NCBI GenBank assembly: GCA_017744315.1
Contig: JAGIBN010000007.1
Coordinates: forward strand, 62,001 to 126,000
Direction of reading: 5' to 3'
Source: Porphyrobacter sp.
Lineage (GTDB): Bacteria > Pseudomonadota > Alphaproteobacteria > Sphingomonadales > Sphingomonadaceae
Length of the DNA stretch: 64,000 bases
Numbering within the stretch: position 1 is the stretch's first letter; each line of letters opens with the position of its first letter. Under the pieces are notes generated by a model. The model saw only the letters and a program-made list of their open reading frames with translations, searched no databases and was not told the DNA's origin. Positions 3,599 through 21,113 of the stretch are shown here, piece after piece. The position numbers were made by a program, and so were the translations under genes.

Positions 3599-3616
3599 AA
3601 TCCTGAGAAATCAACA

Positions 3617-4639: not shown

Positions 4640-4663
4640 TCGCATCGGGGCCATTGGATCACG

Positions 4664-6151
4664 ATGCGCATCAACAAGAACATGTCGGCGAACTACGCAT
4701 CCAGGCTCTGGGCAGGTCTGTCGAGTTTCGTCTTCCTTCCTCTCTATCTGCGCATACTGGGACCTGAAGCGTTTGGGCTCGTCACCTTCAGCGCTAGCGT
4801 CCTAGGGCTCCTCTTTATCGTTGATATGGGGATATCGAACGCCTTCGCGCGCGAAATGGCTCGGGAGACCCAAAGGGAAAAGCTTGCAGACCTGCTCAGA
4901 TCGCTTGAATCGGTCTACCTTGGAATTGTCCTTGTCGTCACGATTGTTGCGGTGTTGGCTTCGGGCCCAATCGCAGATCATTGGCTGAACGCGTCGAATC
5001 TTGGGCACGATCAAGTCCGCTGGAGTGTGGCACTGATGCTGATAGCAGCGGTGCTACAGGTGATGATGTCGCTCTATATCGGTGCGCTGCTAGGTTCCAA
5101 TCGGCACGTCGAAGCCGCCAAATACCAGATCGGCTTCGGTCTTGTTCGGTCTGGCGTCGTCCTCGTGCCCCTGTATTTTCAGCCAGTCGTGGAACTCGTC
5201 TTCGCTTGGCAACTTGGGGCTTCGCTAATCGGCCTTCTCCTACTCCGAAAGGCGGTATGGGGCACGATTCGCCCCCACTCACCTCCCCACTTCTCGTCGG
5301 AGGCGCTGCACGGGATACGTGGCTTCGCAGGTGGGATGTTCGGCATAGCCTTGATCTCGGCAATCAACACGCAGTCCGACAGGCTGGTGGTGAGCAAGAT
5401 CTTTAGCCTCGATGAGCTGGGATCGTACTCGCTCGCAGCACTAATCGGTCAGATCCCTTCGATGCTGGCGCTACCGCTGGCCGTAACGGTATTGCCCCGG
5501 CTTACGGGTCACGTGACACAGGGCCAATCTGACGAGCTGACCACGCTCTATATGCGATATTCATTCATGGTCAGCTTCGTCGCCTTCAGCGCAGCTTTAG
5601 GCGTCATCGTGGGTGCGCCGCACCTCCTTACGCTTCTTAAAGGAAGCGCGCCTTCTGACGAACTAGTCATGGTTGCTCGAGTTCTGGCAGGCGGGGCAGT
5701 ATTGCTGGCCGCACAGTTCATGCCGTATCACCTTGCTATCGCAAGCGGTCACACCCGAACGAGTCTCATCCTTGGCTCGCTTTCCGCCATTTTTATGCCC
5801 ATGGCCATGTTCGCATCCGCTACGCATCTGGGCCTAGTAGGGGTCGCTCTCCCGTGGTTGGTAATGAATGGCATAGCGGCTATTTTTCTTGCCTGGTACG
5901 TCACCCCTCAATTCCTGGGGCACTTCACAATGCAATGGGCATGGAAATGCAATCTTATTCCAATGTTGTTAAGCGCAATGACGATACTTCCTTTGTCACT
6001 TATCGCCAACGACCATAATAACCCCCTGACCTTTCTTGCAATTTTAGCCCTAATTTGCGGAACCTCGCTTGCTGTCAATTCAGTAATTTGCCACTATCTA
6101 TTTCCAGAAAAGCCTGAAAACCAACCCCTTTCAATAGATATTACATCGTGA
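4664..6151 (+). CDS. wzx: Wzx-type oligosaccharide flippase
   Basis: It moves the undecaprenyl-linked repeat unit from the cytoplasmic to the periplasmic face of the inner membrane. The 495-residue protein is hydrophobic throughout, with about a dozen membrane segments. It has the typical N-terminal pattern of the polysaccharide transporter family (NMSANYASRLWAGLSSFVF, then PLYLRILGPEAFGLVTFS). GGATCACG precedes the ATG. The stop overlaps the GTG of the next gene in GTGA, so the polymerase-like gene is probably translationally coupled. The specific substrate cannot be inferred. Confidence 0.92.
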   Translation: MRINKNMSANYASRLWAGLSSFVFLPLYLRILGPEAFGLVTFSASVLGLLFIVDMGISNAFAREMARETQREKLADLLRSLESVYLGIVLVVTIVAVLASGPIADHWLNASNLGHDQVRWSVALMLIAAVLQVMMSLYIGALLGSNRHVEAAKYQIGFGLVRSGVVLVPLYFQPVVELVFAWQLGASLIGLLLLRKAVWGTIRPHSPPHFSSEALHGIRGFAGGMFGIALISAINTQSDRLVVSKIFSLDELGSYSLAALIGQIPSMLALPLAVTVLPRLTGHVTQGQSDELTTLYMRYSFMVSFVAFSAALGVIVGAPHLLTLLKGSAPSDELVMVARVLAGGAVLLAAQFMPYHLAIASGHTRTSLILGSLSAIFMPMAMFASATHLGLVGVALPWLVMNGIAAIFLAWYVTPQFLGHFTMQWAWKCNLIPMLLSAMTILPLSLIANDHNNPLTFLAILALICGTSLAVNSVICHYLFPEKPENQPLSIDITS

Positions 6152-7356
6152 ACGCCCCCCATCAAGATTCAGTGCAAGAGCACGTTAAGCTCATTTACGG
6201 GCTATTCGTTACTGCCGCAGTAATAAGCTGCCTCTATTGCGTGGTTATGGGGCAATTTAACGGCGACTTTTTCCCGCAGCCGGTCTTTTTATCGGTACCA
6301 TCTCTTCTTATAGTTATGATCGCCTGTTTGGTCCCCTATTTCGCGACCTGGAAGCTCGCGGGCGCGCTCGAGCGCCTGCCTCCCCGCTGGATGTTTGAGC
6401 CCTCGCAATCGTCGCTCCTCATCTTTATGCTGGCCGGTTTCGCACTGCATATCGCGGCGACCGTATTATATGGCGTGGGAGTGCTCGATCGCGAATTCTA
6501 TAGCGCGCCACCTCTAGTAGTGCCTTTTATCCAGGTACTTAACCGTCTAGATCCATATTATCTTGGCGTCTTCTACATACTGGCCACGCCGAAGCGCACC
6601 TCGACCGATCTACTAGCTATCTCACTGATGATGGCGACCGGACTTTTGCGAGCAGGTGTCGGAGCCTTTGTTTACATCATCATTGCGCTGACTATCAAAT
6701 ACCGGTTCGAGCTGCTTGCGCTATGCCGGCGAATGCCCTGGTTGATTGTTGGCGCCGTGGTCGCGCTGCCGACAATCGTAAGCGCACTTTACGAAGTACG
6801 GGGACGGTTGAGAGGCGACGCCTCCTACGAATACAGTCTTTCTGAGATGATGCTCGGACGTTTCGTCGGCCGACTTTCCAGCTTTTCGAACGTCGCTTAC
6901 ATTGAGCAATTCAGTCAGTCGTTCGCGTGGTCGGCCAAATCGCTGGAGCCATTCTACTTTGCCAAACAAGCCCTAGTTAGCTTGTTTGGAAGCAGCATAG
7001 CACCGGGCCTTACGCCAGAAAGACTCTTGATCGCGGGCAACCGCTCGTATGAAGGCTATTCCACATTTATGGCCGGGGTTCCGGGCAACCTATACATCGC
7101 TTGGTACATTTCACCTTGGGTGGCCTCCTTCAATTTATTTCTTATAGTCGCAATCGTGACCGCCGTCTTGTGGATGTCTCGCTACTTCGGAAGCGGGTTA
7201 TCGCGAACATTTGGGATTGCGATGCTGGTCTATCCTTTGACTAGCGGCGTCGCAAATGAGTTTTCTTCTTTGCTATTCAACACTGCGATCTTCCTTATTT
7301 TCGCTGTGATATTCGGAAGTGGCGGATTACGGAGTGCTGGCCACCATGGAGTGTGA
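6148..7356 (+). CDS. Wzy-like polysaccharide polymerase candidate (integral membrane protein)
   Basis: A 402-residue protein with about ten hydrophobic segments and a few soluble loops, lying directly after wzx with a 4-bp GTGA overlap. Wzy polymerases are poorly conserved, so position and topology carry the assignment: flippase in front, glycosyltransferases behind. A central loop containing YEVRGRLRGDASYEYS could be the periplasmic Arg-containing loop expected of Wzy. No clear Wzy_C signature is seen, unlike in the protein at 21.1–22.5 kb. It could instead be another EPS membrane component. Confidence 0.65.
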   Translation: MNAPHQDSVQEHVKLIYGLFVTAAVISCLYCVVMGQFNGDFFPQPVFLSVPSLLIVMIACLVPYFATWKLAGALERLPPRWMFEPSQSSLLIFMLAGFALHIAATVLYGVGVLDREFYSAPPLVVPFIQVLNRLDPYYLGVFYILATPKRTSTDLLAISLMMATGLLRAGVGAFVYIIIALTIKYRFELLALCRRMPWLIVGAVVALPTIVSALYEVRGRLRGDASYEYSLSEMMLGRFVGRLSSFSNVAYIEQFSQSFAWSAKSLEPFYFAKQALVSLFGSSIAPGLTPERLLIAGNRSYEGYSTFMAGVPGNLYIAWYISPWVASFNLFLIVAIVTAVLWMSRYFGSGLSRTFGIAMLVYPLTSGVANEFSSLLFNTAIFLIFAVIFGSGGLRSAGHHGV

Positions 7357-8452
7357 GGACCTGCGGAACGCTACGCGCGTCCATATTTGCACCACACGGT
7401 CTCGCTCAGGGATCACGGCGTATGCCAAAGAATTTCATCAACTGGTCCTTGAGCCCCAAGGCTATAAAATGGCCGATCCTGAGTCAGTCCAACGGATAAG
7501 CTCGGCGTTCAATCCGAGCTCGCGCTTTCATTTCCAACTTGGCATATTTCAGCAAGCCGAACGCAGAGCTTTGACCAGCGTTGTGAGGAACGGTTATGAC
7601 GTGGTCGAGGCCACCATCCATGACCCCCCGTTTCTTACATTCCCTTATTTCCAGTTCAGCTCTGATTTCCTGACACGGCTCTCGCGAGGCTTTGACTGGT
7701 ACCTCAGTTCATTTGGTTTGCAGCGACGGATGTTAGAAAGGCTGTCTCGCATCTTCGTTTTGTCGGATGAAGGCAGGCGTGCCGTTTTGCGCATGGCACC
7801 ATCGGCAAACGTAATTGCGATACCTCACATCGTTCGCAAGGACAGCATTTGGCCGCCAAAAAGTCCGCTCGGCAAGAATCTCCTCTATTTTGGCTTCATC
7901 GGGCGCGGCAAAGGATTGGATTATGTCTTGGCGCTTCATCGTGAGCTTCTGAAGATCAGGCCAGGTACGCATCTGCACATCGTTGGACAGCCGGCCACCT
8001 CCCGCGATCAACGTTACGTTGAGCGTTTGGCAGCGGAGTATCGGGATGACCTCACCTTTCACGGGTTTGTCCCCGAAGATAAACTCGATGGCTTGTTCGA
8101 GGGTGCGGCACACGTCATCCTGCCCTATCGGCAGTACAAGTACGTGTTCCCCGCCAGTGGAAGCGCAATTCATGCAATTCGGCGTGCGCGCATTGTTTGG
8201 ACATGTCCTGTCAACGCCATGACAGAGGTCATTCGGGACGGCGAGAACGGTTTCATGCTTACGATGGAAGTCGAGCGGGACGCGCGTCGTTTGGCTTCGG
8301 TACTCGAAGACGAAGGATTGACCAGACGGATTAGCGATGGCGCCCGGGAATCGGCGATCGGCATGTCGCAGTATCCCTACCACGTTCATTTCGCGGGAGA
8401 CGGCACCTCGCCCTCGAACGATTCCTCACACTGCCGGGTCAGCGTCGCTTAG
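7346..8452 (+). CDS. Glycosyltransferase family 4
   Basis: A GT-B glycosyltransferase in the repeat-unit assembly set. Recognisable parts are the start of the donor half (NLLYFGFIGRGKGLDYVL), FHGFVPEDKLDGLF and ILPYRQYK, then the stretch around VNAMTEVIRDGENGF. The usual E-x7-E motif is not clean: where EGFG-type residues are expected the protein reads KYVFPASGSAIHAI, as in some divergent members. The frame is open from a GTG at 7319, but the ATG at 7346 gives a shorter overlap with the polymerase-like gene, so the start is uncertain. The product has about 368 residues. The acceptor is unknown. Confidence 0.82.
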   Translation: MECEDLRNATRVHICTTRSRSGITAYAKEFHQLVLEPQGYKMADPESVQRISSAFNPSSRFHFQLGIFQQAERRALTSVVRNGYDVVEATIHDPPFLTFPYFQFSSDFLTRLSRGFDWYLSSFGLQRRMLERLSRIFVLSDEGRRAVLRMAPSANVIAIPHIVRKDSIWPPKSPLGKNLLYFGFIGRGKGLDYVLALHRELLKIRPGTHLHIVGQPATSRDQRYVERLAAEYRDDLTFHGFVPEDKLDGLFEGAAHVILPYRQYKYVFPASGSAIHAIRRARIVWTCPVNAMTEVIRDGENGFMLTMEVERDARRLASVLEDEGLTRRISDGARESAIGMSQYPYHVHFAGDGTSPSNDSSHCRVSVA

Positions 8453-8461
8453 GAATTAAAC

Positions 8462-9322
8462 TTGGCCCGTGTCACTATATCGATTGTCAGTCACGGTCAT
8501 CGTACGATGGTCGAAGCGTTGCTCGGAGACCTGGCGCGCCAAACGTTGGCGCCCGCGTTGGAAGTCGTCTTGACGCTTAATGTCGCTGAGGCGCCCCCCC
8601 GCCTTAGCTGCTGGCATGGGCTGAGCCTCAGAATCATTCGCAATGACACCCCACGAGGGTTTGGGGCCAATCATAACTCCGCCCTACTCGGCGTCGAGAC
8701 GCCTTGGGTCATTGTCATGAATCCGGACATTCGGATCAAAGACGACACGCTACTTGAACGACTTGTCGGTAGGAAAAGCCAAGATCGACTGGGAGTGATC
8801 ACTCCGCGGATCGAAAACTCCCATGGTCAACTCGAAGACGCGGTGCGGCTTAACCTGGATCCTATCTCGCTTCTCGGGCGGCGCGTATTCCAACGCACTA
8901 AGCTGGCCGGTCCAGCTTTGCCCGACGGCCGATTTCGCTGGATCGCTGGCATGTTCATGGCCCTTCCCTCAACTGCATGGAAGAGTGTTAACGGCTTCGA
9001 TGAACGGTACTTCCTCTACTGCGAAGACTACGATCTTTGCGCTCGGCTTGCCACGCAGGGCTATTCAATCGTGGTCGACGACAAGCTCAGCGCAATTCAT
9101 GACGCGCAGCGTTCTAGCCATCGGTCATTGAAATATCTGCGCTGGCACGTGACCAGCATCTTGAAAGTCTGGTCTCGGCCCCATTTTTGGCAAATTTGGG
9201 CCCTTGACCTATTATGCTGGTGGCACCGCCTCTCATCGCGACAGCCCGTCAAGATTAAGGACTCCCACTCCAATTCCCGAGAGTCCGATCATAATAATAA
9301 TTCATTGGAGACTGATTTGTGA
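8462..9322 (+). CDS. Glycosyltransferase family 2, rhamnosyltransferase-like
   Basis: A 286-residue GT-A enzyme of the type often annotated as rhamnosyltransferase. It has TISIVSHGH at the N-terminus, the metal-site region VMNPDIRIKDD, and the acceptor-side motif GFDERYFLYCEDYDLCARL. The start is a TTG with AGGA seven bases upstream. The dTDP-L-rhamnose genes on the other strand make rhamnose a reasonable donor, but this is inference from context. The C-terminus is Asn/Ser-rich and polar. The stop overlaps the next gene's GTG in GTGA, so the two are probably coupled. Confidence 0.85.
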   Translation: MARVTISIVSHGHRTMVEALLGDLARQTLAPALEVVLTLNVAEAPPRLSCWHGLSLRIIRNDTPRGFGANHNSALLGVETPWVIVMNPDIRIKDDTLLERLVGRKSQDRLGVITPRIENSHGQLEDAVRLNLDPISLLGRRVFQRTKLAGPALPDGRFRWIAGMFMALPSTAWKSVNGFDERYFLYCEDYDLCARLATQGYSIVVDDKLSAIHDAQRSSHRSLKYLRWHVTSILKVWSRPHFWQIWALDLLCWWHRLSSRQPVKIKDSHSNSRESDHNNNSLETDL

Positions 9323-10509
9323 CCGGTGTCTCAAAACGCACGCGTTGCCGCTCATGCTTTGCGCCAGGCCTTCGTGTAGTCGTTGATTTCGGCCTTCAGC
9401 CGCTCGCCGGCTTTTACGCGGCGAGCCCTGAAGATGCGATCAATCACAGGCGCTACCCCTTGTTGCTGGAGGCCTGTCCCGTCTGCGACCTCCTACAGAT
9501 CACCGACCTGCCGCCAATCGAAGAGGTGTTCCACGACGACTATACCTATTCTAGTTCCGAGATTCCGCCACTCGTTGCGCACTTTGCGGACTATTCGCGA
9601 TGGCTGGAAGAGCGCTTTCCCAAGAGTGCGGCGATCTTGGAATTCGGCTGCAACGATGGTGTGCTGCTCAACCAGCTGCGTGAGCGGGGTTACCAGCACC
9701 TTACGGGTGTGGATGCGTCAACCAACATGGTAGCCCGAGCCGCGTCACGCGGTTTCGATGTTATCGAGGGCTTTTTCGGCAGCGGCATTATTGACCGGCT
9801 CGGCAAGCGCGCGCCCTTTGACCTGATCACTTGCTCAAACGTGTTCGCTCATATTGACGACCTACAAGACGTCCTAGGGGCAGCCCACAAGCTGCTTGGA
9901 GAGGGCGGCCAAATGTGCATCGAGGTCCACGACGCTGAAAAGCTAGTTCTCGAGGGGCAGTTTGAGACGATTTATCACGAACATCTTACCTATTTTTCGG
10001 AGGGAAGCCTTCGCACCTGCCTGACGCTCAACGGTTTCGATGTCTCAGAGATCGAGAAGACCCCAATGCACGGTGGAGGATTGCGGGCGCGAGCTCGCAA
10101 GGTACGATTGGAAACTGGTACGATTCAATCGGAACCACGGAGTGCGGTAGAGATCGAAAGGATCGGGAATTCACTGACCGCAAAGGTCAAGCAGTGCCGT
10201 GAAAGGGTCAATGCGCTTCGAGCCCAGTACGGCCCACTCGACGGTTACGGGATGGCCGGTCGCGCCCAGATGTTCTTGGCGATGACTCAAACCGAAAAAG
10301 CTTTCGGCGCGTTCTTTGACGACGCGCAAATTCGGCAGAATCGATACGCGGTTGGCACCGACGAGCGCATTGAGGCCTTTTCGCCGGAACGAGCTGCCAG
10401 GGCCTGCGTGATCCTCGCGTGGAATTATTCCGATGCCATCCTTAAGCGGATCGAGCCCTACTATGAGACGGTGGAGGTCATGTTTCCGGAAATCACAAAG
10501 CTAAAATGA
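9319..10509 (+). CDS. SAM-dependent methyltransferase with N-terminal zinc motif, sugar C-methyltransferase type
   Basis: The N-terminus has paired Cys motifs (CRSC near residue 9, then CPVC near residue 54), as in the putative zinc-binding domain of Methyltransf_13. A class I SAM fold follows with ILEFGCNDGVLL and TGVDAS. The C-terminal third (VILAWNYSDAILKRIEPYY) matches Methyltransf_14. This three-part layout is known from NDP-hexose C-methyltransferases such as TylC3 and NovU, which act on 4-keto sugars. The product could therefore be a C-methylated sugar in the polysaccharide, but the substrate is unproven. It lies between a glycosyltransferase (GTGA overlap) and an RmlD-like gene (ATGA overlap). 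Confidence 0.85.
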   Translation: MTGVSKRTRCRSCFAPGLRVVVDFGLQPLAGFYAASPEDAINHRRYPLLLEACPVCDLLQITDLPPIEEVFHDDYTYSSSEIPPLVAHFADYSRWLEERFPKSAAILEFGCNDGVLLNQLRERGYQHLTGVDASTNMVARAASRGFDVIEGFFGSGIIDRLGKRAPFDLITCSNVFAHIDDLQDVLGAAHKLLGEGGQMCIEVHDAEKLVLEGQFETIYHEHLTYFSEGSLRTCLTLNGFDVSEIEKTPMHGGGLRARARKVRLETGTIQSEPRSAVEIERIGNSLTAKVKQCRERVNALRAQYGPLDGYGMAGRAQMFLAMTQTEKAFGAFFDDAQIRQNRYAVGTDERIEAFSPERAARACVILAWNYSDAILKRIEPYYETVEVMFPEITKLK

Positions 10510-11255
10510 GGCGTGTCGTCATCGGCAAGCGCAATCGAGTGCTCGCGACGGGCGATACCCGCTTCGTATCCGGGAGCGAACTTATCGCAAATTTTGCAGA
10601 GTACCAGCAAGACTTCGAAAGTGCTCAGGCGATTGTCTGGGCTTGGTACGCACTCGATGACAGCGGGCGTCCGGATATTTCGGCAACGCTACGCGGTACC
10701 GAGACGATTCTCGCTAAACTCCACTCCTTCAGTATGCCCCGCATATTCCTGAGTACCGACGCCGTATTTTCGGGCCAGGAAGGAGCTTACGGCGAAGACG
10801 ACACTCCGGACCCTCAAACTGCTTATGCTCGCGTGAAGCACTCGCAGGAAAGTCTCATGTCCGGCTTCACGCGTCTTCGCTTCACCACTTTTGGCCCCTC
10901 TTTCAGCGTCTCGCGCCCCCTCCTCCTTGAAATGGTATCTGGAGGCACTCTCACTGTGGGTCGCCCGCATCAGTACTTTAGTCCGATTTCGACACCCACG
11001 CTGAACAACGCGATAGAAACAATCCTTGCGTCCGGAGCTGAACCGCAACTCTACCACCTTACTAGTGAACCGATCAGCAAGTCCGCTTGCTGCATACGCC
11101 TATCAAAGGCAATCGGAGTGCCTCCACCGAAATTGGACACCATTGATGAGACGGCTCTCAACCTATCGCTGACCTCTCGCACTCACAACTATTCGCTTTC
11201 TGATGAGATCACTCTTGCCGTAGGTGCATGGCGCTCTCAGAGAGCCAATCGCTGA
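10506..11255 (+). CDS. RmlD-like NAD-dependent sugar reductase or epimerase, atypical N-terminus
   Basis: A 249-residue protein whose middle resembles RmlD-type SDR proteins: FLSTDAVFSG, then TAYARVKHSQE with the Tyr-xxx-Lys pair. The usual glycine-rich GxxGxxG at the N-terminus is absent, since the protein begins MRRVVIGKRNRVLATGD. It may have lost cofactor binding or may use a modified site. It overlaps the methyltransferase stop by ATGA. If active, it could reduce the keto sugar made by the CapE-like enzyme, as WbvR does in UDP-L-RhaNAc synthesis. That role is inference only. Confidence 0.6.
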   Translation: MRRVVIGKRNRVLATGDTRFVSGSELIANFAEYQQDFESAQAIVWAWYALDDSGRPDISATLRGTETILAKLHSFSMPRIFLSTDAVFSGQEGAYGEDDTPDPQTAYARVKHSQESLMSGFTRLRFTTFGPSFSVSRPLLLEMVSGGTLTVGRPHQYFSPISTPTLNNAIETILASGAEPQLYHLTSEPISKSACCIRLSKAIGVPPPKLDTIDETALNLSLTSRTHNYSLSDEITLAVGAWRSQRANR

Positions 11256-11269: not shown

Positions 11270-11375
11270 AGATTAGTCATCAATGGGATGCATGGCGATC
11301 AACGGCACCGACCGTGTTTAGAACAACCTGGAGGGAAAGCGGGAAGCCAGAAGTTCGGAATCCTCTTTTGGGACA

Positions 11376-13229
11376 ATGAATTTGACCAGCACCACACGCC
11401 GCCAGTTAATCGCCGCCGTTCCGGCGGTTACAGCAGCTGCAACCATCTCTGCAAACCTCAGAGCGGCCGCCAGCCCAACGTACCCCAATACGCCCGCCGG
11501 TCTCGCCGGCTCGATTCCGGGCCAAGCGTTTGCGGTCGACAATGACGATGGAACGGTCACGGTGTACGTCAATAAGGGTGGCGACGCGGTTGCTCAGTTC
11601 ACGTTGACGACCACCGCGGCATTGTCTGCGGCGGATGGCGCCGGGAAGATCGGCTTCACGCCTGACGGACGAGGCGCCACAACCAGGCCGACGGATGCGG
11701 CCATTCGGGATCTGGGACAAAACCTGAAGAGCTTTGGTGAAGGGGTAGGCACCGGATCAGCCCGCATCGACACTGCTGCCTGGCAGGCTGCATTGGCTTC
11801 ACTTGCTTCGACTGGAAGTCGCAAGCTCATTGTTCCGGTTGGCGAGTACCTTATCGAGGACACGCTTTTGCTCCCGGCTAACCTCAGTTGCATCGAGATT
11901 GTTGGCCAAGGTGGCTACGATGGTATTCGCGGACCGATAAATCAAAGCCTGTTCACATCGTTAAAGTGGGTCGGGCGTCGGGATCCGACGGCCGCTGTGG
12001 TCAGGTTCGACCAATCGTGCGGGTGCGTCTGGCGAGGTATCAGCATCGACTGCAACTACCGCGCCGGATTTGGGCTTCAGTTCATGTCGAGCTCGCACGA
12101 CACCGGAAGCATCAAGAACATCATCGAGCGGTGCAGCATTCACTACGCGCTTCGAGACGGAATCATTGTGGGCGAATGGGGCGATCCGGCAGTTGGCCCG
12201 GGAGCTCGACAGTTCTTCGGCAATCGCTTTAGCGACCTAACATTCTATGGCTGCGGGCAGTCGGCGATCCATATCAACGAATGGAACGCAGATCAGCAGG
12301 TCTTCGACAATGTAATGGTCTATCTGGACGACGCCCCTAGCCCACAACATACCCTCAATGCGTTCTGGTTCGACGCGGGCGGCCAACACAGTCTCCTGCA
12401 AAACTGCCAATCCGGCGGTCTCAGCGTTGTCCCAGGAATTCCTTCCTCAGGATACATGATCCGCAACGAAAAGAGCGATCAATCTATCGGTGGAGCGTTC
12501 GGCCTCACCGTGGTCAATTGTTGGCAAGAAGGCGAAGGCGGGCTTTATTACGGCGTGACAAGCACGAACGACAACAAGGCATTTAAGTTCGAACGCTGCG
12601 CATCATTTACCAATGATAAAACAAACAGATCGGTATATATAGATAAAGGAACTTCATCTCAAATACCTTATACCTTCGATACCTGCACATTTTTTAGTGA
12701 TGTTGAAATTGCTTCAGACACTTTTAGAAAGGAGAGCCTTTCTCTTATAAATTGCATCTTTTCTCCAGGAAAAGGTGTCATTGATTTTGAAGGGAATCTG
12801 ACAACTAACGGACTCTTTGAGAAAGGTCGTTCGCATGAAGATAGCATTGTTCTGCCCCGTTTTGCGGATCTCATCCGAGTAACTCTCAATGAGAATGTCA
12901 ATTCTGTCTTTGCGAATGGTATTAGCAAGAAGGGCGACAAGATCACTTTGCTTGTCACCCAAGACGATAGCGGCAAGCGCACTATCAACTTTGCATCTAG
13001 CGGAAATTTCTCCGATCAACCCACAATACCGCAGCCAAACACTGCACCGAACAGCACGACGGTCTATTCATTCATCTCGGACGGATCGCTTTACTACCTT
13101 GTGGGCATCCAAGGCCTGCTCAGCAGTGCCATCGCCAATCCTGTGGGCGGGACGACCGTCGATGTGGAGGCCCGGCACGCCATTAACCTGATGCTCGCAC
13201 AATTGCGGTTTCGTGACGACTTCGTCTGA
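11376..13229 (+). CDS. Tat-exported right-handed beta-helix protein, pectate-lyase-3-like
   Basis: The 617-residue protein begins with a Tat-type signal (TTRRQLIAAVPAVTAAATIS), so it is probably folded before export. A linker with AVDNDDGTVTVYVNKGGDA leads to a helix entry typical of pectate-lyase superfamily and phage tail-spike proteins: DTAAWQAALAS, IVPVGEYLIEDTLLLPANL, then IVGQGGYDGIRG. Repeated short beta-rungs follow (GSIKNIIERCSIHYALRDGIIVG, split by turns). Polysaccharide loci often carry such lyases or hydrolases to trim or release the polymer, but no catalytic residues can be assigned. Bases 12,600–12,830 are strikingly AT-rich compared with both sides, suggesting a replaced module. 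It could instead be a non-catalytic binding protein. Confidence 0.75.
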   Translation: MNLTSTTRRQLIAAVPAVTAAATISANLRAAASPTYPNTPAGLAGSIPGQAFAVDNDDGTVTVYVNKGGDAVAQFTLTTTAALSAADGAGKIGFTPDGRGATTRPTDAAIRDLGQNLKSFGEGVGTGSARIDTAAWQAALASLASTGSRKLIVPVGEYLIEDTLLLPANLSCIEIVGQGGYDGIRGPINQSLFTSLKWVGRRDPTAAVVRFDQSCGCVWRGISIDCNYRAGFGLQFMSSSHDTGSIKNIIERCSIHYALRDGIIVGEWGDPAVGPGARQFFGNRFSDLTFYGCGQSAIHINEWNADQQVFDNVMVYLDDAPSPQHTLNAFWFDAGGQHSLLQNCQSGGLSVVPGIPSSGYMIRNEKSDQSIGGAFGLTVVNCWQEGEGGLYYGVTSTNDNKAFKFERCASFTNDKTNRSVYIDKGTSSQIPYTFDTCTFFSDVEIASDTFRKESLSLINCIFSPGKGVIDFEGNLTTNGLFEKGRSHEDSIVLPRFADLIRVTLNENVNSVFANGISKKGDKITLLVTQDDSGKRTINFASSGNFSDQPTIPQPNTAPNSTTVYSFISDGSLYYLVGIQGLLSSAIANPVGGTTVDVEARHAINLMLAQLRFRDDFV

Positions 13230-13288
13230 GTTCGATCCTGGTCAAGCAGTCATGGAAATTGCAACCTGACCGTCGCAGAAACCAACCG

Positions 13289-14395
13289 TCAGGTGCGGCG
13301 AGCCCGTTCAGAATAGTTGGATGCCATCCACTTGAGATAGCTGCCGTCCATTGTGGCTCGCCACCAATCTTCATTGGCCAGATACCAACCAAGTGTCTCC
13401 TGGAAGCCTTGCTCAAAGGTCCGAACGGGTTCGTAGCCCAATTCTTCCCTGATTTTGCGTTCGTCGATCGCATAACGCCTGTCATGCCCGAGCCTATCGG
13501 CAATATGAGTCTTAAGGAATTCGGATTTCTTCCCCCGCGCCGCTGGCGCGTCTGGAAAGCGCCGGCCTAACTGCGAGTCGTGCTCAAAGGCCGCATCGAC
13601 TCCGGCGCAGATTGCGTCAATTACTGCAACATTGGGTAACTCCGCGCCCCCGCCGACATTGTAAGTTTCGCCAATTCGGCCTTTCTCGAGAACCAGATCT
13701 ATACCCCGACAATGGTCTTCCACATGGAGCCAGTCTCGTACGTTCATGCCGTCTCCGTAGATTGGCAGATCCTTCCCCGTCAGGCAGTTAATTATGAACA
13801 GGGGGATGAGCTTTTCCGGAAATTGGTAGGGCCCGTAGTTGTTCGAGCAATTTGTCGTCGTAGTCTGCAGACCAAAGGTGTGGTGATAAGCGCGCACAAT
13901 ATGATCGCTTCCGGCTTTGGAAGCTGAATAGGGCGAGTTTGGCGCATAGGCGGTCGTTTCAGAGAATGGCGGATCATTGGGACCGAGACTGCCGTAAACT
14001 TCATCCGTGGAGATATGATGGAACCGATGCGGTTTACCGCTCCCCTTATCCAACCAGACAGACTTCGCCGCCTTCAAGAGACTGTGGGTTCCGCTCAAAT
14101 TGGTTTCAATAAAGGCGTCCGGTCCGTTGATCGATCGATCAACATGGCTCTCTGCTGCAAAGTGTACGATCGTATCGACTTCGTGGTCATGCAGCAGTCG
14201 TTCGACAAGTGAAGTATCTCGAATGTCCCCACGAAAAAATGAAAAATCAGTAAGGCCTGAGAGATTGGCCATGTTTCCCGAATATGTTAAAGCATCCAAA
14301 ATTACCAAACTGTCATTTGGATACTTTTCATTCCAATATCGAACAAAATTTGCCCCAATAAATCCGGCGCCACCTGTGATAAGAAGGTTAGGCAT
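13289..14395 (-). CDS. rmlB: dTDP-glucose 4,6-dehydratase
   Basis: Second step of dTDP-L-rhamnose synthesis: dTDP-glucose to dTDP-4-keto-6-deoxyglucose. The 368-residue protein has ITGGAGFIG at the N-terminus, STDEVYG with the catalytic T130-D131-E132, and PYSASK with Y156 and K160. The start ATG at 14395 shares one base with the rmlD stop (TAATG). An upstream ATG at 14467 exists but would add unconserved residues inside rmlD. It is the last gene of the rmlA–rmlC–rmlD–rmlB run. Confidence 0.97.
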   Translation of the reverse strand: MPNLLITGGAGFIGANFVRYWNEKYPNDSLVILDALTYSGNMANLSGLTDFSFFRGDIRDTSLVERLLHDHEVDTIVHFAAESHVDRSINGPDAFIETNLSGTHSLLKAAKSVWLDKGSGKPHRFHHISTDEVYGSLGPNDPPFSETTAYAPNSPYSASKAGSDHIVRAYHHTFGLQTTTTNCSNNYGPYQFPEKLIPLFIINCLTGKDLPIYGDGMNVRDWLHVEDHCRGIDLVLEKGRIGETYNVGGGAELPNVAVIDAICAGVDAAFEHDSQLGRRFPDAPAARGKKSEFLKTHIADRLGHDRRYAIDERKIREELGYEPVRTFEQGFQETLGWYLANEDWWRATMDGSYLKWMASNYSERARRT

Positions 14396-15252
14396 TACAT
14401 TAACTCTCCAAGCATGGTGCGCAAATTCACTCTCCAATGCTCTGAAGAAGCGCCAAGCACTTTCCAAGTTTGGCTTTTGTCCAGCACCGAAAAAGCGGGT
14501 CGACGAGCGACGGTGGGAAATTGATCAGTTGAGATGGGTTCGACCGTGACACGCCGGTCTAGGATGCCAAGGGCCGAGGCTTCTTCCGCAATCGCCACTG
14601 CAAAATCGTACCAAGAGGCAACGCCGGCGTCAGAAAAATGATAGATGCCTGACAACTGCTTCGCAGATAGCGACCAAAGCGCCTGAGCCAAGGAGCGGGC
14701 GTATGTCGGAGTTCCAATCTGATCAGCGACCACAGAAACGTCGCCTCGCTCACTCATGAGCCGAAGCATGGTCTTCACGAAGTTCGATCCTGCCGCAGCA
14801 TAGACCCAGGAAGTGCGGACGATCAATGCCTCGGGATGTACCGCAACAACAGCCTTTTCCCCATCTAGCTTGGTGCGCCCATAGACTCCCAATGGGGTAG
14901 CGAGATCGTCAGGGCGATAAGGCCGCGATGATGATCCATCAAAAACGAAGTCAGTTGATATGTGAATACAGCGCGCACCGTTTGACCTAGCCGACGCGGC
15001 GATCCAGCCAGGCGCTCTGAAATTGACTTTCTCCGCCAACTCCGCCTCACTTTCTGCCTTATCAACGGCCGTATAAGCCGTTGCATTAATGACCAGATCG
15101 GGCTGGAGTTTTTCGATCAAGAGAGCGACCGAGTCCTCGCAAGTGACGTCGCACGAACGCCGATCGACAGCCTCCAGTTTCACATCGTTAGGCGCACATT
15201 CGACAAGTGCTCTTCCGACCTGTCCATTTGCACCTAGGATCAAAGCCTTCAT
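14395..15252 (-). CDS. rmlD: dTDP-4-dehydrorhamnose reductase
   Basis: Last step of dTDP-L-rhamnose synthesis, NAD(P)H-dependent reduction of the 4-keto group. The 285-residue protein has ILGANGQVGRAL for cofactor binding, HISTDFVFDG, and GVYGRTKLDGE with the Tyr-xxx-Lys pair. The family's usual length is about 290. It overlaps rmlC by 4 bp (ATGA) upstream and rmlB by one base downstream, so the genes are very probably one translationally coupled unit. Confidence 0.96.
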   Translation of the reverse strand: MKALILGANGQVGRALVECAPNDVKLEAVDRRSCDVTCEDSVALLIEKLQPDLVINATAYTAVDKAESEAELAEKVNFRAPGWIAASARSNGARCIHISTDFVFDGSSSRPYRPDDLATPLGVYGRTKLDGEKAVVAVHPEALIVRTSWVYAAAGSNFVKTMLRLMSERGDVSVVADQIGTPTYARSLAQALWSLSAKQLSGIYHFSDAGVASWYDFAVAIAEEASALGILDRRVTVEPISTDQFPTVARRPAFSVLDKSQTWKVLGASSEHWRVNLRTMLGELM

Positions 15253-15794
15253 GAGCTGAGCTCTGCGCGCTCAAGCAGAGATCCTTGAGCGTCTTTAGCC
15301 GATACAGTGGGCGTCAACCCTTCCAACGGCCACTCAATACCCAACGCGGGATCGCACCAGAGAATGCACCGTTCGTCCTCGGGAAAGTAGAAATCGGTGC
15401 ACTTGTACAGAAAATCCGTATTGTCTTCGAGCGCAAGGAACCCGTGAGCAAATCCGGGCGGGATCCAAAGCATACGATTGTTCTGGAGGGACAGCTCCAC
15501 ACCAACCGACCTCCCAAATGTAGCTGACGTTGGTCGGACATCCACGGCCACGTCGTAGGCACGACCGGACACCACCCTTACCAGTTTGCCTTGGGGGCAA
15601 GTCAGCTGGTAGTGTAGTCCACGCAGGACACCGCGCGCGGAGCGACTATGGTTGTCCTGAACGAATTGCGCGTGAATATCCGCTTCAGAAAAAGCGCGCG
15701 CATTCCATGATTCCATGAAAAAGCCACGCTCATCGCCGAAAACTCGAGGCTCGATGATTTTAACATCGGGCAATGTGGTATCGATAACTCTCAA
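15249..15794 (-). CDS. rmlC: dTDP-4-dehydrorhamnose 3,5-epimerase
   Basis: Converts dTDP-4-keto-6-deoxyglucose to dTDP-4-keto-L-rhamnose in the cytoplasm. The 181-residue cupin-fold protein shows [11 protein letters not shown], then [10 protein letters not shown] with the catalytic His, [11 protein letters not shown], and [13 protein letters not shown]. Both ends overlap the neighbouring rml genes by 4 bp. Confidence 0.97.
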
Positions 15795-16672
15795 CGGACA
15801 CGACCAATTTTCAAAATTTCTAACAAGTAGGAGCCATATCCGCTTTTACTCAAGGGCGCCGCCAGTTGCGCAAGCTCCTCATCAGAAATGAACCCCATTC
15901 GCCAGGCTACTTCTTCAGGGCAGCATATTTTGAAGCCCTGCCTTTCCTCGATGATTCGCGTAAACAACGCAGCGTCCAGGAGAGAGGCGTGTGTTCCAGT
16001 ATCAAGCCAAGCGTATCCCGCCCCCATAACCTCGACGTTGAGGGTCCCGGCTTCGAGATAAAGGCGATTGATATCGGTTATTTCGAGTTCGCCGCGTGGA
16101 GATGGCTCAATCTTGTGAGCGTATTCAACAACACTTTCGTCGTAAAAATAGAGACCTGTCACCGCAAAGTTCGACTTTGGATTAGCAGGCTTTTCCTCCA
16201 GGGACTGTGCTCTTCCCTCTGCATCGAAGGAAATCACTCCATAACGCTCCGGATCCGAAACGTGGTAACCGAATACAGTCGCACCCGACTCTCGTTTCTT
16301 CGCACGATTTAGAAGTCCCCGGAGATCGTGGCCGTAAAAGATATTGTCTCCCAAGATCAACGCGCTGGGCCCACCCGCGACAAAATCGGCTCCGATCTGA
16401 AATGCCTGAGCCAAACCGCCGGGGTTCGGCTGCACTGCATAGCTTAGCTCGACCCCCCAGCTCGATCCATCACCGAGCAATCGTTGAAAGGCAGCCTGAT
16501 CATCAGGGGTCGTAATGATCAGTATTTCTCGAATACCAGCCAGCATTAAGACAGAAAGCGGATAGTAGATCATCGGCTTGTCATAAACGGGCATCAACTG
16601 CTTACTGATAACAGTTGTTATCGGATGCAACCGAGTCCCTGCGCCGCCGGCCAGAATAATGCCCTTTGTCAT
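15791..16672 (-). CDS. rmlA: Glucose-1-phosphate thymidylyltransferase
   Basis: Makes dTDP-glucose from dTTP and glucose-1-phosphate, the first step towards dTDP-L-rhamnose. The 293-residue protein has the nucleotidyltransferase signature [40 protein letters not shown] and LDTGTH. The ATG at 16672 ([10 protein letters not shown]) is preferred over an upstream ATG at 16732, because the conserved N-terminus begins there and GGGAAG lies just upstream. It heads the rml run, 112 bases after the repeat-protein gene, so it could share the wza–wzc transcript or use its own promoter. Confidence 0.97.
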
Positions 16673-16784
16673 CCCGACTTCCCGGATGGTAAGATTTCTG
16701 AAGAACAGAGTGATCCAATTGGGATTGGACAAGTCATCGAGGGCCTATCATTCGCAAAATGGGAAGTGCTCGCCGCAGCCGCGT

Positions 16785-18053
16785 CTATTCAAAGCGCAGG
16801 TCGTCAATCCACGGCAAGGGATCGTTCAGCGAACCTTCTCCGGCGATTTGAACGGTGAGCCGTTGAAAGTTGCAGCCGGAAGGAACACTAAACTTGGTCG
16901 ACAAATCCATGGGGCCTGATCCCGCCTTGTCTGGGACTAGCCGAGCAAGAAGCGCCTCCTCGGTTGTCGACGCACATTCGATACGAAGCTCCGGTCGTTC
17001 GAAACGGTCCGTCGGGATATCGCCCATGCGGACCCGAACAGTATGATCGCCCGGCTTGAGATGGACATATTGTCGGGCCACTTCTCCTGAGCGACCATTG
17101 TACGCGGCCAATTTAAGAACAAAGCCATCACGGCCTTGAACTCGTTCCCGCGACGCCCATAGTTCCGATTCCTGGGTTAGCAGCCAGTCAAAAGGACCAC
17201 CGCCCTCCGGTACCTCGAACGCCATTCCTCTAGCCGGCGCTGACAACTCGCTTTTCGCCACGAGCCCGGGTGAACTGTAGACATCCCAGGCAGCAGCGTA
17301 GCGACCTGCGTTCACGAGACGCTGCATGAGTCTATTATAGAATTCTTTATTCTCGGCCTTAGCCGGGTCCATCAGCAATCGGGTGATGCGGGTGGAGAAC
17401 TCCAGATCGGTACCGCTGCTCGCAGCGAATATCGCGAAGGAATCCGACCAATTAGGGCGCTTCGATATCGTTTCTACGACAGCTTCCTCCCCACGAGGGT
17501 CCGAAGCCGCGCTAATCAGCAGCGGAAAGACGCCAGCACGCGAAGTTTCGGAGGTTCTGAGAACGATATCAAGATGCTGCACCAACTGCTCTGGCTCACC
17601 TTGACGACCGTAGTAGTTTACCAGCCACATTTGCGTCATCACATCGCGCCTGGAGAGGCGCTGCGATTGGAGCATGAGGCCTCTGGCCAATTCCTGAGAT
17701 TTCGGAGACCCCGTGTCGAGGCTCTGCGCCAGAACGCGCAAGGCCTCCGGCATGAGCAGGTCTCGCCGAATTGCATCTTCCGCCAACAATTGGGCGGCAG
17801 GTCTAGATTCATTGGAAACGACCAGCTGCGAGCCCAGTTTTGCTCGCGCCCGAGCGTCAAATGGGGCCACCGTCAGCGCGAGCTGCGGGCGCGTTGATCG
17901 AACGGCCCCCGCCAAGGAAACTTGAAAGGCAACGGCGAGCGCAATCAATCCAACCAGCAGGATAAAACCCGTGTTTAGATTGGTTAACGACGCTGCCTGC
18001 CGAACCAAGGCCGCCAAGCGACCTCGATCGTGTTGATCACGCTGCCTTGCCAT
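16785..18053 (-). CDS. One-pass membrane protein with helical repeats, EPS-locus component
   Basis: About 422 residues if it starts at the ATG at 18053; a second ATG at 18083 is also possible. There is one membrane segment near the N-terminus (GFILLVGLIALAVAFQVSL). A helical region then looks TPR-like (LAEDAIRRDLLMPEALRVLA and similar). The C-terminal part is probably beta-rich, with VHLKPGDHTVRVRMGDIP resembling a carbohydrate-binding-like domain. The start overlaps the end of wzc by 17 bases, so it belongs to the export operon. I do not recognise a named family; a scaffold or regulator of polymer export would fit its position. Confidence 0.7.
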   Translation of the reverse strand: MARQRDQHDRGRLAALVRQAASLTNLNTGFILLVGLIALAVAFQVSLAGAVRSTRPQLALTVAPFDARARAKLGSQLVVSNESRPAAQLLAEDAIRRDLLMPEALRVLAQSLDTGSPKSQELARGLMLQSQRLSRRDVMTQMWLVNYYGRQGEPEQLVQHLDIVLRTSETSRAGVFPLLISAASDPRGEEAVVETISKRPNWSDSFAIFAASSGTDLEFSTRITRLLMDPAKAENKEFYNRLMQRLVNAGRYAAAWDVYSSPGLVAKSELSAPARGMAFEVPEGGGPFDWLLTQESELWASRERVQGRDGFVLKLAAYNGRSGEVARQYVHLKPGDHTVRVRMGDIPTDRFERPELRIECASTTEEALLARLVPDKAGSGPMDLSTKFSVPSGCNFQRLTVQIAGEGSLNDPLPWIDDLRFE

Positions 18054-20247
18054 CCCGCTCGCCGTAGCTGTAGCCGTATTCATAGCTGTAGCCGTAATCT
18101 GCTCGCTTTGAATCAAACATCGTCAGCAGGCCACCAAGCATCCGAACAGACGGGGAGTGCAGTCTGCTAAGCGCGACCTGCGCCATCGTGGCTCTCGTCT
18201 TGTGAGATTCGATGACAAAGATGCAGCCCTCCACGCGGCTTGCGATAAGGGGCGTGTCAGCAAGCCCCATCACGGGAGGAGCATCGACGATCACATGGTC
18301 AAACTTCTCTGCCAGTTCGTCAATCAGCTGGCCAAAGCGTCCGCTTGTGAGCAACTCGGCAGCATTCGGCGGTGTCGGGCCAGCACTAATTAGCGAGAGC
18401 CCATTTGAAGGATGCGTCTGAATCAGCGACGACAGATCATCAATGCCCGACAGGAAGTTGCTCAATCCCCGATCGTTGCCTAGCCCAAACAGCTCGTGTT
18501 GCGACGGCGAACGCATGTCGGAGTCAACGACGACGACGTTTCGTGAAGTTCGGGTGAGAGTCCGTGCGAGCGCATAGACAGTCGTTGACTTTCCTTCGCC
18601 TGGTCGCGTGCTCGTGACGGTCAACGTTTTGGGCACCCCGCGCTCTGTCGTGAATGCCAATCGCGCCTGCACGGAGAAATATGCCTCCACGATCGCAGAT
18701 TTCGGATCTTCAAGTTCAAGGATCGGATCCTCATTGCCAGTCCGCTCGATTGTCCCAAGCAGCGGCAACCCCAGTTTCATTTCCAGTTCTCGAGGATCTG
18801 AAATCGCCTCGTCTGCCTGGTCACGAAGTAGTGCCAAGCCCAGCCCGATGCCACCGCCGAGAAGGCCTGCCACCAGCAGATTTATAAGCAACCTTGGGCT
18901 GGAGGGGTCTTCCGGAACCTGCGCAGGATCGACAATGGAGATGTTATTCACGCCGACGCCGCCGGCAACGCCGATCTCTTTGTAGCGCTGCAGAAGGGCG
19001 TCATAGAGCTGGCGGTTAGTATCCACCTCCCGCTCGTAGATGTTGTACTGAATGGTCCGGCGGCGCAGGTCCAGAAGATCGCCCTTCAACGTTTGGACAC
19101 GGCTCCGAAGTGCACTTTCCCTCTCGGAAGCTGCGGCATAATTCGTCCGCAGAGTATCCCGAACTCTTCCTTCCTCACGTTCAATTGCGCGATCGATTTC
19201 CGCGACCTGATCGGCAAGAGCTTGTGCGGGCGGATAGCTCGGATCAAATTGAGTGAGCATCTTCGCCCGCTCCGACGCAATCGTAGCGCGGCGTGTCCGA
19301 AGGTCGGAGATGGCAGAGTTATTCAACGCCTCGATCGTCAAGCCACCCGAACCGCGAAGACGACTTTCCGCGGCGACCCGCGCGGCCGTCGATGCATTCA
19401 GTTCGGCATTGAGAGATGCTAGATCTTCCGCAACGAGCGGGCGCTCGACCGTCGCACCACCCTGCGCGTTCGCCGGAATGTTGATGATCCTCTGGTTCGC
19501 CGCATAGGCTACCAAGGTGCGCTCCGACTCTTGAAGTCGTTGCCGCAGCTGAACAAGCCGGTCCTCGAGGAATTTTCGCGCATACGAAGTAGCCTCGAAA
19601 CGGCGTCCGAGAGACGTCTCGATAAACAGCTTGGTCCAAGCATTCACGATTTGGGCCGAAAGGGCAGGATCAGGGCTAGTGAAGCGCACCGCAACCAACC
19701 GCGAAAGCCGATCGGGGTCGATCGAAACATTCTTGAGCAGAATCTCTCCAGCAACACGGACGCGTTCATCACGCTGCGCCGCGCTGGCGCCGCTAACACC
19801 TTCCCGCAATTCATCGGCAACTTCGCTGGCACCGAACATTTCGAAAAAGGCCGCGTTATTGTACAAGCGAAGGTCCGTTGCGACCCGCCGTGCCAGCGTC
19901 TCTGATCTCAGCAAGCCGTACTGCGTCTGATAGAATTCCAGATCTACAGGATTGGATTCAGGCTCCACCCCTTGAACGTTGACGACGCGGTAGCTCTCGC
20001 GCTGAATTTCCAGAACTGATGTTGCCGTGAACTTGGGAGTCATCAGCAGTGTGACCAATAACCCAAGGATAAGCGACAAGATTACCGAACCGATAAGCAA
20101 CCATTTCCAGCGCTTCGCTATCCGAAGATAATGCGCCAGAGCTGAACTTGAACCGCCGACCTGACGCATAACACCAGCGCCTCCATGATCGGCGTTTCGC
20201 TTTCCGACCATAGCAAGTTGAGCTGGATTAAAGTTGAAATCGTTCAT
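18037..20247 (-). CDS. wzc: Wzc-type chain-length determinant and bacterial tyrosine kinase
   Basis: It controls polymer length and export at the inner membrane. The 736-residue protein has a membrane segment near residues 48–69, a long periplasmic coiled-coil region, and a second membrane segment near 453–474. The cytoplasmic kinase domain carries Walker A TRPGEGKST (K553), Walker A' VVVVDSDMR (571–579) and Walker B VIVDAPP (652–658). The tail has six tyrosines between 718 and 728, the autophosphorylation cluster. It lies 12 bases downstream of wza. No Wzb-type phosphatase gene is seen in the window. Confidence 0.95.
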   Translation of the reverse strand: MNDFNFNPAQLAMVGKRNADHGGAGVMRQVGGSSSALAHYLRIAKRWKWLLIGSVILSLILGLLVTLLMTPKFTATSVLEIQRESYRVVNVQGVEPESNPVDLEFYQTQYGLLRSETLARRVATDLRLYNNAAFFEMFGASEVADELREGVSGASAAQRDERVRVAGEILLKNVSIDPDRLSRLVAVRFTSPDPALSAQIVNAWTKLFIETSLGRRFEATSYARKFLEDRLVQLRQRLQESERTLVAYAANQRIINIPANAQGGATVERPLVAEDLASLNAELNASTAARVAAESRLRGSGGLTIEALNNSAISDLRTRRATIASERAKMLTQFDPSYPPAQALADQVAEIDRAIEREEGRVRDTLRTNYAAASERESALRSRVQTLKGDLLDLRRRTIQYNIYEREVDTNRQLYDALLQRYKEIGVAGGVGVNNISIVDPAQVPEDPSSPRLLINLLVAGLLGGGIGLGLALLRDQADEAISDPRELEMKLGLPLLGTIERTGNEDPILELEDPKSAIVEAYFSVQARLAFTTERGVPKTLTVTSTRPGEGKSTTVYALARTLTRTSRNVVVVDSDMRSPSQHELFGLGNDRGLSNFLSGIDDLSSLIQTHPSNGLSLISAGPTPPNAAELLTSGRFGQLIDELAEKFDHVIVDAPPVMGLADTPLIASRVEGCIFVIESHKTRATMAQVALSRLHSPSVRMLGGLLTMFDSKRADYGYSYEYGYSYGERDGKAA

Positions 20248-20259
20248 TGGATCGCTTGC

Positions 20260-20979: not shown

Positions 20980-21069
20980 GTCTCACCTTACGTATGAAGT
21001 TCGCGACATTGTTGCAGCGTCAGTGGATGCGGATTTCGCATAAGCGAACAAACCGTTAGGGGGTGAGAC
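20980..21069 (-). promoter_or_regulatory. Candidate wza leader with ribosome-binding-site-sequestering pairing
   Basis: In the minus-strand transcript, the segment from bases 21069–21062 reads GUCUCACC. It is perfectly complementary to GGUGAGAC at 20987–20980, which contains the wza ribosome-binding site and abuts the GTG start. Pairing across a 74-base loop would hide the site. No known riboswitch or protein-binding element was recognised. The helix is only 8 bp, so it could be chance. Confidence 0.3.
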
Positions 21070-21071
21070 AG

Positions 21072-21093
21072 CTAGTTGCAAACCCCCAACTGG
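21072..21093 (-). terminator. Weak hairpin after the O-antigen ligase-like gene
   Basis: CTAGTTG and CAACTGG form a 7-bp stem with one G-T pair and an 8-base loop, about 20 bases after the stop of the ligase-like gene. No T-run follows on either strand. It may slow or terminate transcription, or belong to the wza leader. Confidence 0.25.
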
Positions 21094-21113
21094 TAAAGTC
21101 ACATTCGGTCCAA

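Follow-up and report, generated by a model that had tools for sequence, protein, structure and literature searches.

Organization of the locus

We analysed a stretch of 64,000 nucleotides from Porphyrobacter sp. (Sphingomonadaceae; assembly GCA_017744315.1, contig JAGIBN010000007.1, positions 62,001 to 126,000; henceforth the window) and focused on the open reading frame (ORF) at 11376-13229, whose product is the sole match to itself in the source genome (3.65 Mb searched). This gene is probably that of a domesticated phage tailspike, the exported product of which would act on the polymer made by the locus itself. Exopolysaccharide (EPS) genes flank the ORF on both sides and there is no phage tail-gene setting; upstream are glycosyltransferases, a methyltransferase and an RmlD-like gene, and downstream, on the other strand, are rmlB, rmlD, rmlC and rmlA, so that the position given in a preliminary description of this DNA, between a glycosylation run and the rhamnose genes, was correct. 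The features are as follows.

11376..13229, + strand: gene of the Tat-type, tailspike-type beta-helix protein (617 aa, ATG start), last + strand gene of the EPS operon
11376..11471, + strand: twin-arginine (Tat) signal peptide, residues 1 to ~32 (TTRRQLIAAVPAV...), recognised by eye, with a putative cleavage site
11475..11714, + strand: N-terminal connector module, residues 34-113, cyanophage-tailspike-like (tblastn)
11760..13139, + strand: beta-helix head, residues 129-588, homologous to the spikes of viral contigs L006-L009 (alignment, model, fold matches)
12270..12293, + strand: HINEWNAD motif, residues 299-306, invariant in all five proteins (alignment)
12600..12830, + strand: AT-rich patch in the head, residues ~409-485, collinear with the phage spikes (GC, alignment, codon and tree tests)
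13119..13226, + strand: C-terminal motif (AIANPVGGTTVDVEARHAINLMLAQL) common to DUF2793 proteins and some prophage spikes (profile, alignment)
98..676, + strand: sugar transferase, PF02397 (Pfam), which would start repeat-unit synthesis
3578..11255, + strand: operon of a CapD-like dehydratase (PF02719), wzx (PF01943), a wzy-like membrane protein, glycosyltransferases, a methyltransferase and an RmlD-like gene (translations, Pfam)
13289..16732, - strand: rmlB, rmlD, rmlC and rmlA, dTDP-rhamnose genes recognised by eye from their translations
18037..22487, - strand: wzc (Wzz/GNVR/kinase), wza (Poly_export) and a Wzy_C/ligase-type gene, the export machinery of the locus (Pfam)

The wzy-like membrane protein had no match in the Pfam scan, and a scan of 10400-13400 gave 0 promoters and 2 terminators, not above shuffled sequences.

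A head shared with phage tailspikes

Four proteins on viral contigs (IMG/VR) are related to the head, with identities in the best segments of 57% (L006), 54% (L007), 50% (L008) and 37% (L009), over ~440-460 residues and with E values from 6e-167 to 1e-80. A profile scan of the viral contigs gave the same four relatives as the single-protein scan. L006 is a segment of a contractile-tail phage in which the spike lies between a gene of a collar-fibre family and a tail-sheath gene, with baseplate-type genes recognised by eye, and its sheath is 67% identical to one in a genome of the same family as the window (matches in 14 of 119 genomes). In L008 the spike is downstream of a tail-fibre-family gene; the neighbour gene on this contig matches tail fibres in 21 phage records at 26-31%, mostly of alphaproteobacteria among the matches listed, and in family genomes it matches in short stretches only (5 of 109). 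By eye, L007 is podovirus-like (its neighbour gene had no relative among phage records) and L009, where the spike lies near the contig end, carries capsid-like genes.

The N-terminal 110-125 residues of the L006, L007 and L008 spikes have no significant mutual similarity (best E 0.19), and the anchor of L006 recurs on three other contigs (L142-L144) with other heads, at 53, 61 and 47% identity over 190, 94 and 126 columns; reuse of the anchor and the dissimilar N-termini together mark the head as a portable module. In the window protein the virion anchor is replaced by a Tat signal and a phage-spike-like connector remains.

The window protein keeps 97 of the 105 head columns that are invariant in the four phages, including every one of the 11 phage-invariant positions occupied by charged residues or histidine. 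HINEWNAD is a candidate part of a sugar-binding or catalytic groove, and the retention of phage-invariant residues argues that such a groove would still work. For each of the four closest proteins we also counted the columns common to the other three: 87% are kept in the window protein, 91% in L006, 85% in L007 and 81% in L008, so there is no sign of decay in the window protein.

No second cellular protein matched across the head in 397 family genomes (own included), with up to 3 best candidates scored per genome; 67 of them matched at E<=0.001, all but the own genome within model positions 22-189, that is, in the connector and cap region. With up to 7 best candidates scored per genome, none of 190 genomes of the class gave a second cellular head match either; 22 of them, the own genome among these, had matches, which outside the own genome stayed within positions 41-219. 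A single-protein search of 298 family genomes returned the own genome and four short partial matches, two scans of genome contigs with short exact peptide patterns gave no cellular head relative, and the full protein had no match by tblastn in phage and plasmid collections.

Fold and family assignment

A monomer prediction with AlphaFold2 from a five-row alignment gave a right-handed beta-helix (mean predicted local distance difference test score, pLDDT, 65), most blocks of residues ~130-580 having scores of 60-93 and the ends <50. The model matches phi29 gp12, AlgE4 and the Sf6 tailspike with Z 29.7-30.8 over 305-323 residues (VIA alignment), in agreement with the beta-helix of the preliminary description. 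Foldseek TM-scores of the model to PDB chains were low, most 0.2-0.4, and the fold claim hence rests on the VIA alignment and on homology. Phage spikes, epimerases, lyases and hydrolases alike match this fold at Z up to ~30.

By sequence, the window protein has no Pfam family at E<=1 and falls short of the cut-off of PF12708 (Pect-lyase_RHGA_epim), which all four phage relatives exceed (curated cut-off of 27 bits); because of this, its earlier designation as "pectate-lyase type" is valid for the fold and not for the family. The suggested search among phage tail-spike families was productive: besides the four homologous spikes, a tail-spike family of PHROGs matched at residues 123-172, the start of the helix (E 7.7e-6), and a phage tail-spike connection of the Tat-type beta-helix protein in the polysaccharide locus is supported. 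The PDB sequence search with the window protein alone gave no family assignment, and with profile A1 the PDB matches (12 sequences at E<=10) belonged to various beta-helix enzymes and covered just their cap region.

Tat signal, connector and C-terminal motif

The N-terminus of the 617-aa protein, MNLTSTTRRQLIAAVPAVTAAA, reads by eye as a twin-arginine signal, as had been noted before. The connector that follows is 50% identical to the tailspike of Synechococcus phage Yong-M3-232 (E=3e-5, tblastn) and also matches a second Synechococcus phage; compared as a whole, the window protein and the Yong-M3-232 tailspike are 31% identical over 229 columns (BLASTP, E=8e-12 for this single comparison). 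The connector alone, searched against 298 family genomes, found the own genome and one 48-aa match with an in-frame stop, nothing else.

At the other end, the last 36 residues form a motif whose profile had matches in 211 of the 298 family genomes. This profile had three rows (the window protein, G293 and G091), matches to which are by construction. For 24 of 29 other loci among the matches listed the carrying ORF was found; one of these was a G091 spike, and 22 of the 23 remaining carriers, all scanned, hold DUF2793 (PF10983), a domain listed as a tail fibre of the gene transfer agent (GTA) of Rhodobacter capsulatus, RcGTA, in the available account (PMC10883770). Two spike-like proteins of G091 carry the motif too, and the one checked adjoins terminase and portal genes. 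Aligned to the G293 DUF2793 protein, the C-terminus scored 87, as against at most 38 for 500 shuffled sequences and at most 29 for a background set of 37 beta-helix proteins, a control that takes no account of G293 being found by a search of 298 genomes (E 2.5e-5 there). The DUF2793 domain itself had no Pfam match in the window protein; just the motif beyond the domain is held in common. This motif, GGxTxDxEARxAI, lies beyond the Pfam domain in the DUF2793 proteins (loci L037-L064) and occurs also in some spikes, and it may serve the fibres of gene transfer agents and phages in docking or in trimerisation.

The AT-rich patch

The GC content of 12601-12800 is 0.335, the lowest of any 200 bp in the 64 kb (mean 0.607, standard deviation 0.061; 10-bp steps), so an AT-rich patch within a GC-richer gene, as first reported, does exist. 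When synonymous codons were re-drawn at the gene's own usage, the minimum 200-bp GC was 0.432 +/- 0.017 and 0 of 1000 draws reached the observed 0.33; the dip is thus partly driven by amino acids, the remainder being a shift in codon usage, with GC at third codon positions (GC3) of 0.23-0.35 in four 40-residue windows over residues 401-500. The patch is a true codon-usage anomaly. The re-draw was run on 19 genes of the locus (the beta-helix gene and 18 others), and the dips of wzx (0/1000) and rmlB (6/1000 at own usage, 0/1000 at pooled usage) were not explained by it either, so that patchy codon usage extends beyond the beta-helix gene and is in part a feature of the whole locus. These other dips, at 5900-6150 (end of wzx) and 14210-14410 (start of rmlB), are weaker than that of the beta-helix gene.

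The preliminary description suggested that the patch is an exchanged module of the helix, perhaps together with the polymer structure it recognises. Alignment, sliding identity, codon re-draw and tree tests did not support a foreign module, with homology unbroken and no clear conflict of topology. The patch is collinear with all four phage spikes without any alignment break, and within residues 405-480 all 21 columns common to L006-L008 are kept, likewise all 11 common to the four phages. Residues 129-404 gave as best tree the window protein with L007 (approximately unbiased, AU, test 0.97; others 0.049 and 0.034) and the patch (405-480) the same (AU 0.94; others 0.021 and 0.090), while residues 481-580 prefer the window protein with L008 (AU 0.84), the others (0.15 and 0.25) being unrejected. 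The AU test used 5000 resamplings, too few by the program's own warning, and neither 129-404 nor 405-480 rejects every alternative in every test. The patch GC3 of the window gene is far under that of L006-L008, and as low only in the AT-rich phage L009.

A narrower version, in which the patch came by recent exchange with an AT-rich close relative and altered the fit to the substrate, seems to us rather unlikely. It would account for the low GC3 and for the codon re-draws, as well as for the sliding identities, by which residues 421-460 are closest to L007 (72%, compared with 50% to L006) and residues 361-400 closest to L006 (80%, compared with 65% to L007). It fits poorly with the best tree shared by the patch and residues 129-404, with the complete retention of phage-common columns, with the similar dips of wzx and rmlB, and with the milder GC dips that the phage genes have at the same place (windows 401-440 and 421-460: L006 0.50-0.51, L007 0.39-0.46, L008 0.49-0.54). 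The unit that has clearly been exchanged is larger than the patch: it is the whole head, between phage anchors and the Tat signal.

EPS-linked Tat-type proteins in the genus and family

An orthologue of wzc was present in 5 of 6 genus genomes, own included (45-100% identity); G275 was left out of the comparison of EPS loci within the genus. In three further members the EPS locus encodes a Tat-type protein that differs from the window protein, namely in G079 (524 aa), G199 (486 aa, with a cap motif) and G240 (512 aa), and in G147 no Tat-type protein was seen by eye in the 32 kb downstream of wzc. Pfam beta-helix matches, under curated cut-offs, were found in G079 and G199 and none in G240; all three had weak matches to tail or tail-spike PHROGs. 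Against phage records, the G199 protein had no match and that of G079 only 86 aa at 36%. The G240 protein (L081:1906-3444, - strand) had a weak helix match there, and its C-terminus is 43% identical over 72 aa to a tail fibre of Pseudoalteromonas phage H101; this C-terminus scored 109 against a spike of G004 (maximum 39 in 500 shuffles), in the neighbourhood of which are a DNA-ejection-type gene and an ORF weakly resembling endolysins. The G240 protein is on this basis a candidate for a second domesticated spike in the genus.

A YadA-type adhesin gene (L084:1383-3170, - strand) lies beside the G199 EPS locus, in the vicinity of a cfa gene that shares 89% identity over 241 aa with the cfa near the window locus; apparently the two loci occupy the same chromosomal site with different cargo.

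We extended the comparison with a PF12708 survey of family genomes, in which 30 of 99 had matches (61 match rows). Examined were 53 places, leaving out 7 repeats within the same ORF and G040:C3:628-1008, and four same-genus cases were added by hand. The BLAST references for calling neighbours were the EPS genes of the window and a small set of phage contigs, and EPS or phage context may have been missed as a result. EPS-linked Tat-type proteins were found in G083 and G053 (wzc, wza and others nearby), in G008 (sugar transferase, rmlB-like) and, more weakly, in G055 (rmlB-like only). With the window protein and those of G079, G199 and G240 they make eight, the Tat call being by eye for G053 and G055 and the start codons uncertain for G055 and G079; G026, with one GT1-like gene nearby and no Tat-like start, was excluded. 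The proteins of G053 (L118:9758-11605) and G055 (L119:8377-10359), which belong to different genera, are 44% identical over ~610 residues and are a longer-lived lineage of the same theme; other pairs among the eight have in common short stretches of ~70-120 residues, or none. Tat-like starts are frequent in the survey's non-EPS beta-helix enzymes too (e.g. G057c, G043d, G029b), so that Tat alone is no mark of EPS linkage, and they were absent from all 4 places that had a phage marker in the neighbourhood (one marker match each at G091a, G091b, G004 and G017). For each EPS locus to have a beta-helix-type protein of its own is a recurrent theme, with a clear phage link in two.

Two neighbours of the beta-helix gene deserve mention. 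The RmlD-like gene (10506-11255) encodes just 249 aa, its best Pfam match covering profile positions 76-137 of 287, and may be a diverged reductase working with the preceding methyltransferase. The gene next after wzc (16785-18116, - strand) encodes a 443-aa protein without Pfam match above cut-off and weakly similar to tetratricopeptide repeats (TPR); counterparts after wzc are found also in G079, G147, G199 and G240 (23-30% identity), and it represents a conserved and as yet unnamed partner of wzc genes of this type.

A probable domesticated tailspike and its alternatives

In the scenario that we favour, a phage-type spike with connector, beta-helix head and C-terminal motif would have lost its virion anchor, gained a Tat signal and settled as the last gene of a Wzx/Wzy-type EPS operon. 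Tat export implies that the protein would fold in the cytoplasm; once exported, it would most likely bind the locus's own, probably rhamnose-containing polymer and cut one linkage. Such cutting could set chain length and matrix viscosity, or release chains, as WceF does on stewartan. The homology to spikes and the precedent of WceF suggest an enzyme, exported by the Tat route and probably a trimer, that would cut the polymer of the locus and set the length of its chains; its export, its trimer, its cleavage activity and its substrate, like the passage from phage to host, are inferences. The chemistry may be that of a hydrolase, a lyase or an epimerase. The protein is plausibly matched to the polymer of its locus, and the phage-type ends, with a Tat signal in place of the anchor, indicate descent from phage to host.

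Several points weigh against this scenario. The direction of transfer is read from both protein ends, and the head could instead have passed from host loci to phages. Cellular relatives of the head may have been missed, given that the searches scored the best few candidates or used exact peptides on contigs. The proteins of G079, G199 and G240 had no relative among the viral contigs, and a phage-like C-terminus is present, by the shuffle control, in only 2 of the 8 EPS-linked Tat-type proteins. The catalytic residues are candidates only, and the model is of moderate quality (pLDDT 65) and, as a monomer, gives no view on a trimer.

One alternative is the reverse flow, from an ordinary bacterial EPS-modifying beta-helix enzyme (lyase, hydrolase or epimerase) older than the phage spikes, whose head phages captured. 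We regard this as unlikely. That Tat-type proteins with other helices lie in or near EPS-type loci of seven other genomes (G079, G199, G240, G083, G053, G008, G055) speaks for it, as does the similarity of the G053 and G055 proteins across two genera, from which such genes can be long-lived bacterial genes; yet the connector and C-terminus of the window protein are both phage-type, and the head occurs on four viral contigs with no other cellular match found across it. An anti-phage factor, a secreted head that occupies or strips the surface polymer used as receptor by phages with the same head, appears improbable: the related heads on four viral contigs, one of which encodes a sheath closely resembling one from a genome of the same family, make it plausible that such phages meet this host, but the position in the operon suits polymer processing equally well. 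Least credible, and in our view highly improbable, is that the protein is part of a phage or gene-transfer-agent particle encoded apart from the particle genes, like the detachable RcGTA tailspike TspA. The C-terminal motif shared with DUF2793 proteins would suit such a part, and TspA is indeed a GTA spike that degrades biofilm according to the available account (PMC13420450). A twin-arginine signal, however, would direct the protein out of the cytoplasm, where particles assemble, the gene ends an EPS operon, and that account gives no TspA homologue in the inspected alphaproteobacteria outside Rhodobacterales (PMC13420450).

A broader idea, to which we would give somewhat less than even chances, is that EPS loci of this family repeatedly capture fitting tailspike heads or whole spikes, swap the anchor for a Tat signal and pass polymer genes and head on jointly. 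Behind it stand two proteins from the same genus whose helices are unrelated, the window protein and the G240 protein with its C-terminus matching the G004 spike. If it is true, heads common to phage and locus would be a direct key linking phages to a polymer and hence to the host attacked. The link in sequence makes it testable in which direction exchange runs between receptor-binding proteins of phages and polysaccharide loci of their hosts, whether the phage spikes act, as expected, on the polymer that this locus makes, and whether spike heads predict phage-host pairs in this bacterial group. An exported, probably sugar-cutting spike head at the end of the polysaccharide genes suggests that the bacterium turned a viral tool to trimming its own sugar coat.

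Comparison with known systems

RbmB of Vibrio cholerae, a polysaccharide lyase (PDB 9ozl, 9ozd), has the same fold as the window protein (Z 29.5 over 296-308 residues) and differs from it in sequence (14% identity); many unrelated beta-helices score alike, so this match shows the fold only. The tail spikes L006-L009 have a related head (50-57% for three, 37% for L009) with all 11 charged or histidine positions kept; those of L006-L008 differ in having other N-termini and lying on phage contigs, unlike the Tat signal and EPS operon of the window protein.

Other beta-helix proteins act on the polymers of their own producers. SpsR and GelR are further sphingan lyases besides WelR. WelR itself, a sphingan (welan) lyase, is likewise a sphingomonad parallel beta-helix enzyme cutting the producer's EPS; compared by description only, it is reported without signal peptide and with a Laminin_G-type domain (PMC7899989). 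TspA is described as an alphaproteobacterial tailspike-type beta-helix acting on the producer's own biofilm, and differs by belonging to GTA particles, from which it dissociates via a beta-sandwich N-terminal domain, and by GafA control; a Tat signal, present in the window protein, is not mentioned for TspA in the available text (PMC13420450).

The nearest parallel is WceF of Pantoea stewartii, described as a stewartan hydrolase with a Tat signal, encoded in an EPS cluster and forming a tailspike-like trimer, whose mutants have longer chains (PMC7949094). With it, Tat-signal, tailspike-like enzymes of EPS clusters were a known kind before the present case (PMC7949094). Apart from WceF, we found no other Tat-exported spike in an EPS locus in a literature search made mostly at the level of listings and covering few subscription papers. 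No WceF chain was among the PDB sequence matches of the window protein or profile A1, its presence in that library being unchecked, and chains of WceF and TspA were absent from the fold-search matches listed, which excludes nothing.

Both WceF and the window protein have an EPS cluster with wzc, a Tat signal and a right-handed tailspike-type beta-helix, and the N-terminal part of WceF is said to resemble the N-terminal domains of tailspikes (PMC7949094). For WceF, hydrolase activity and a crystal trimer are proven according to the same account, whereas the window protein is known here from sequence and model. WceF is given as ~25% identical to a phage spike active on its polymer (PMC7949094), and the window head reaches up to 57%, with phage-type ends as well. 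The authors of WceF speculate on acquisition through coevolution with phages, a link that remained speculation in their account (PMC7949094) and is here visible in sequence over the whole head and both ends. New in the present case are what appears to be another bacterial group, the homology to phage spikes across the head, the phage-type ends and a related second candidate in the same genus, which offer a natural comparison for an enzyme moving from fast phage depolymerisation to regulated trimming by the host.

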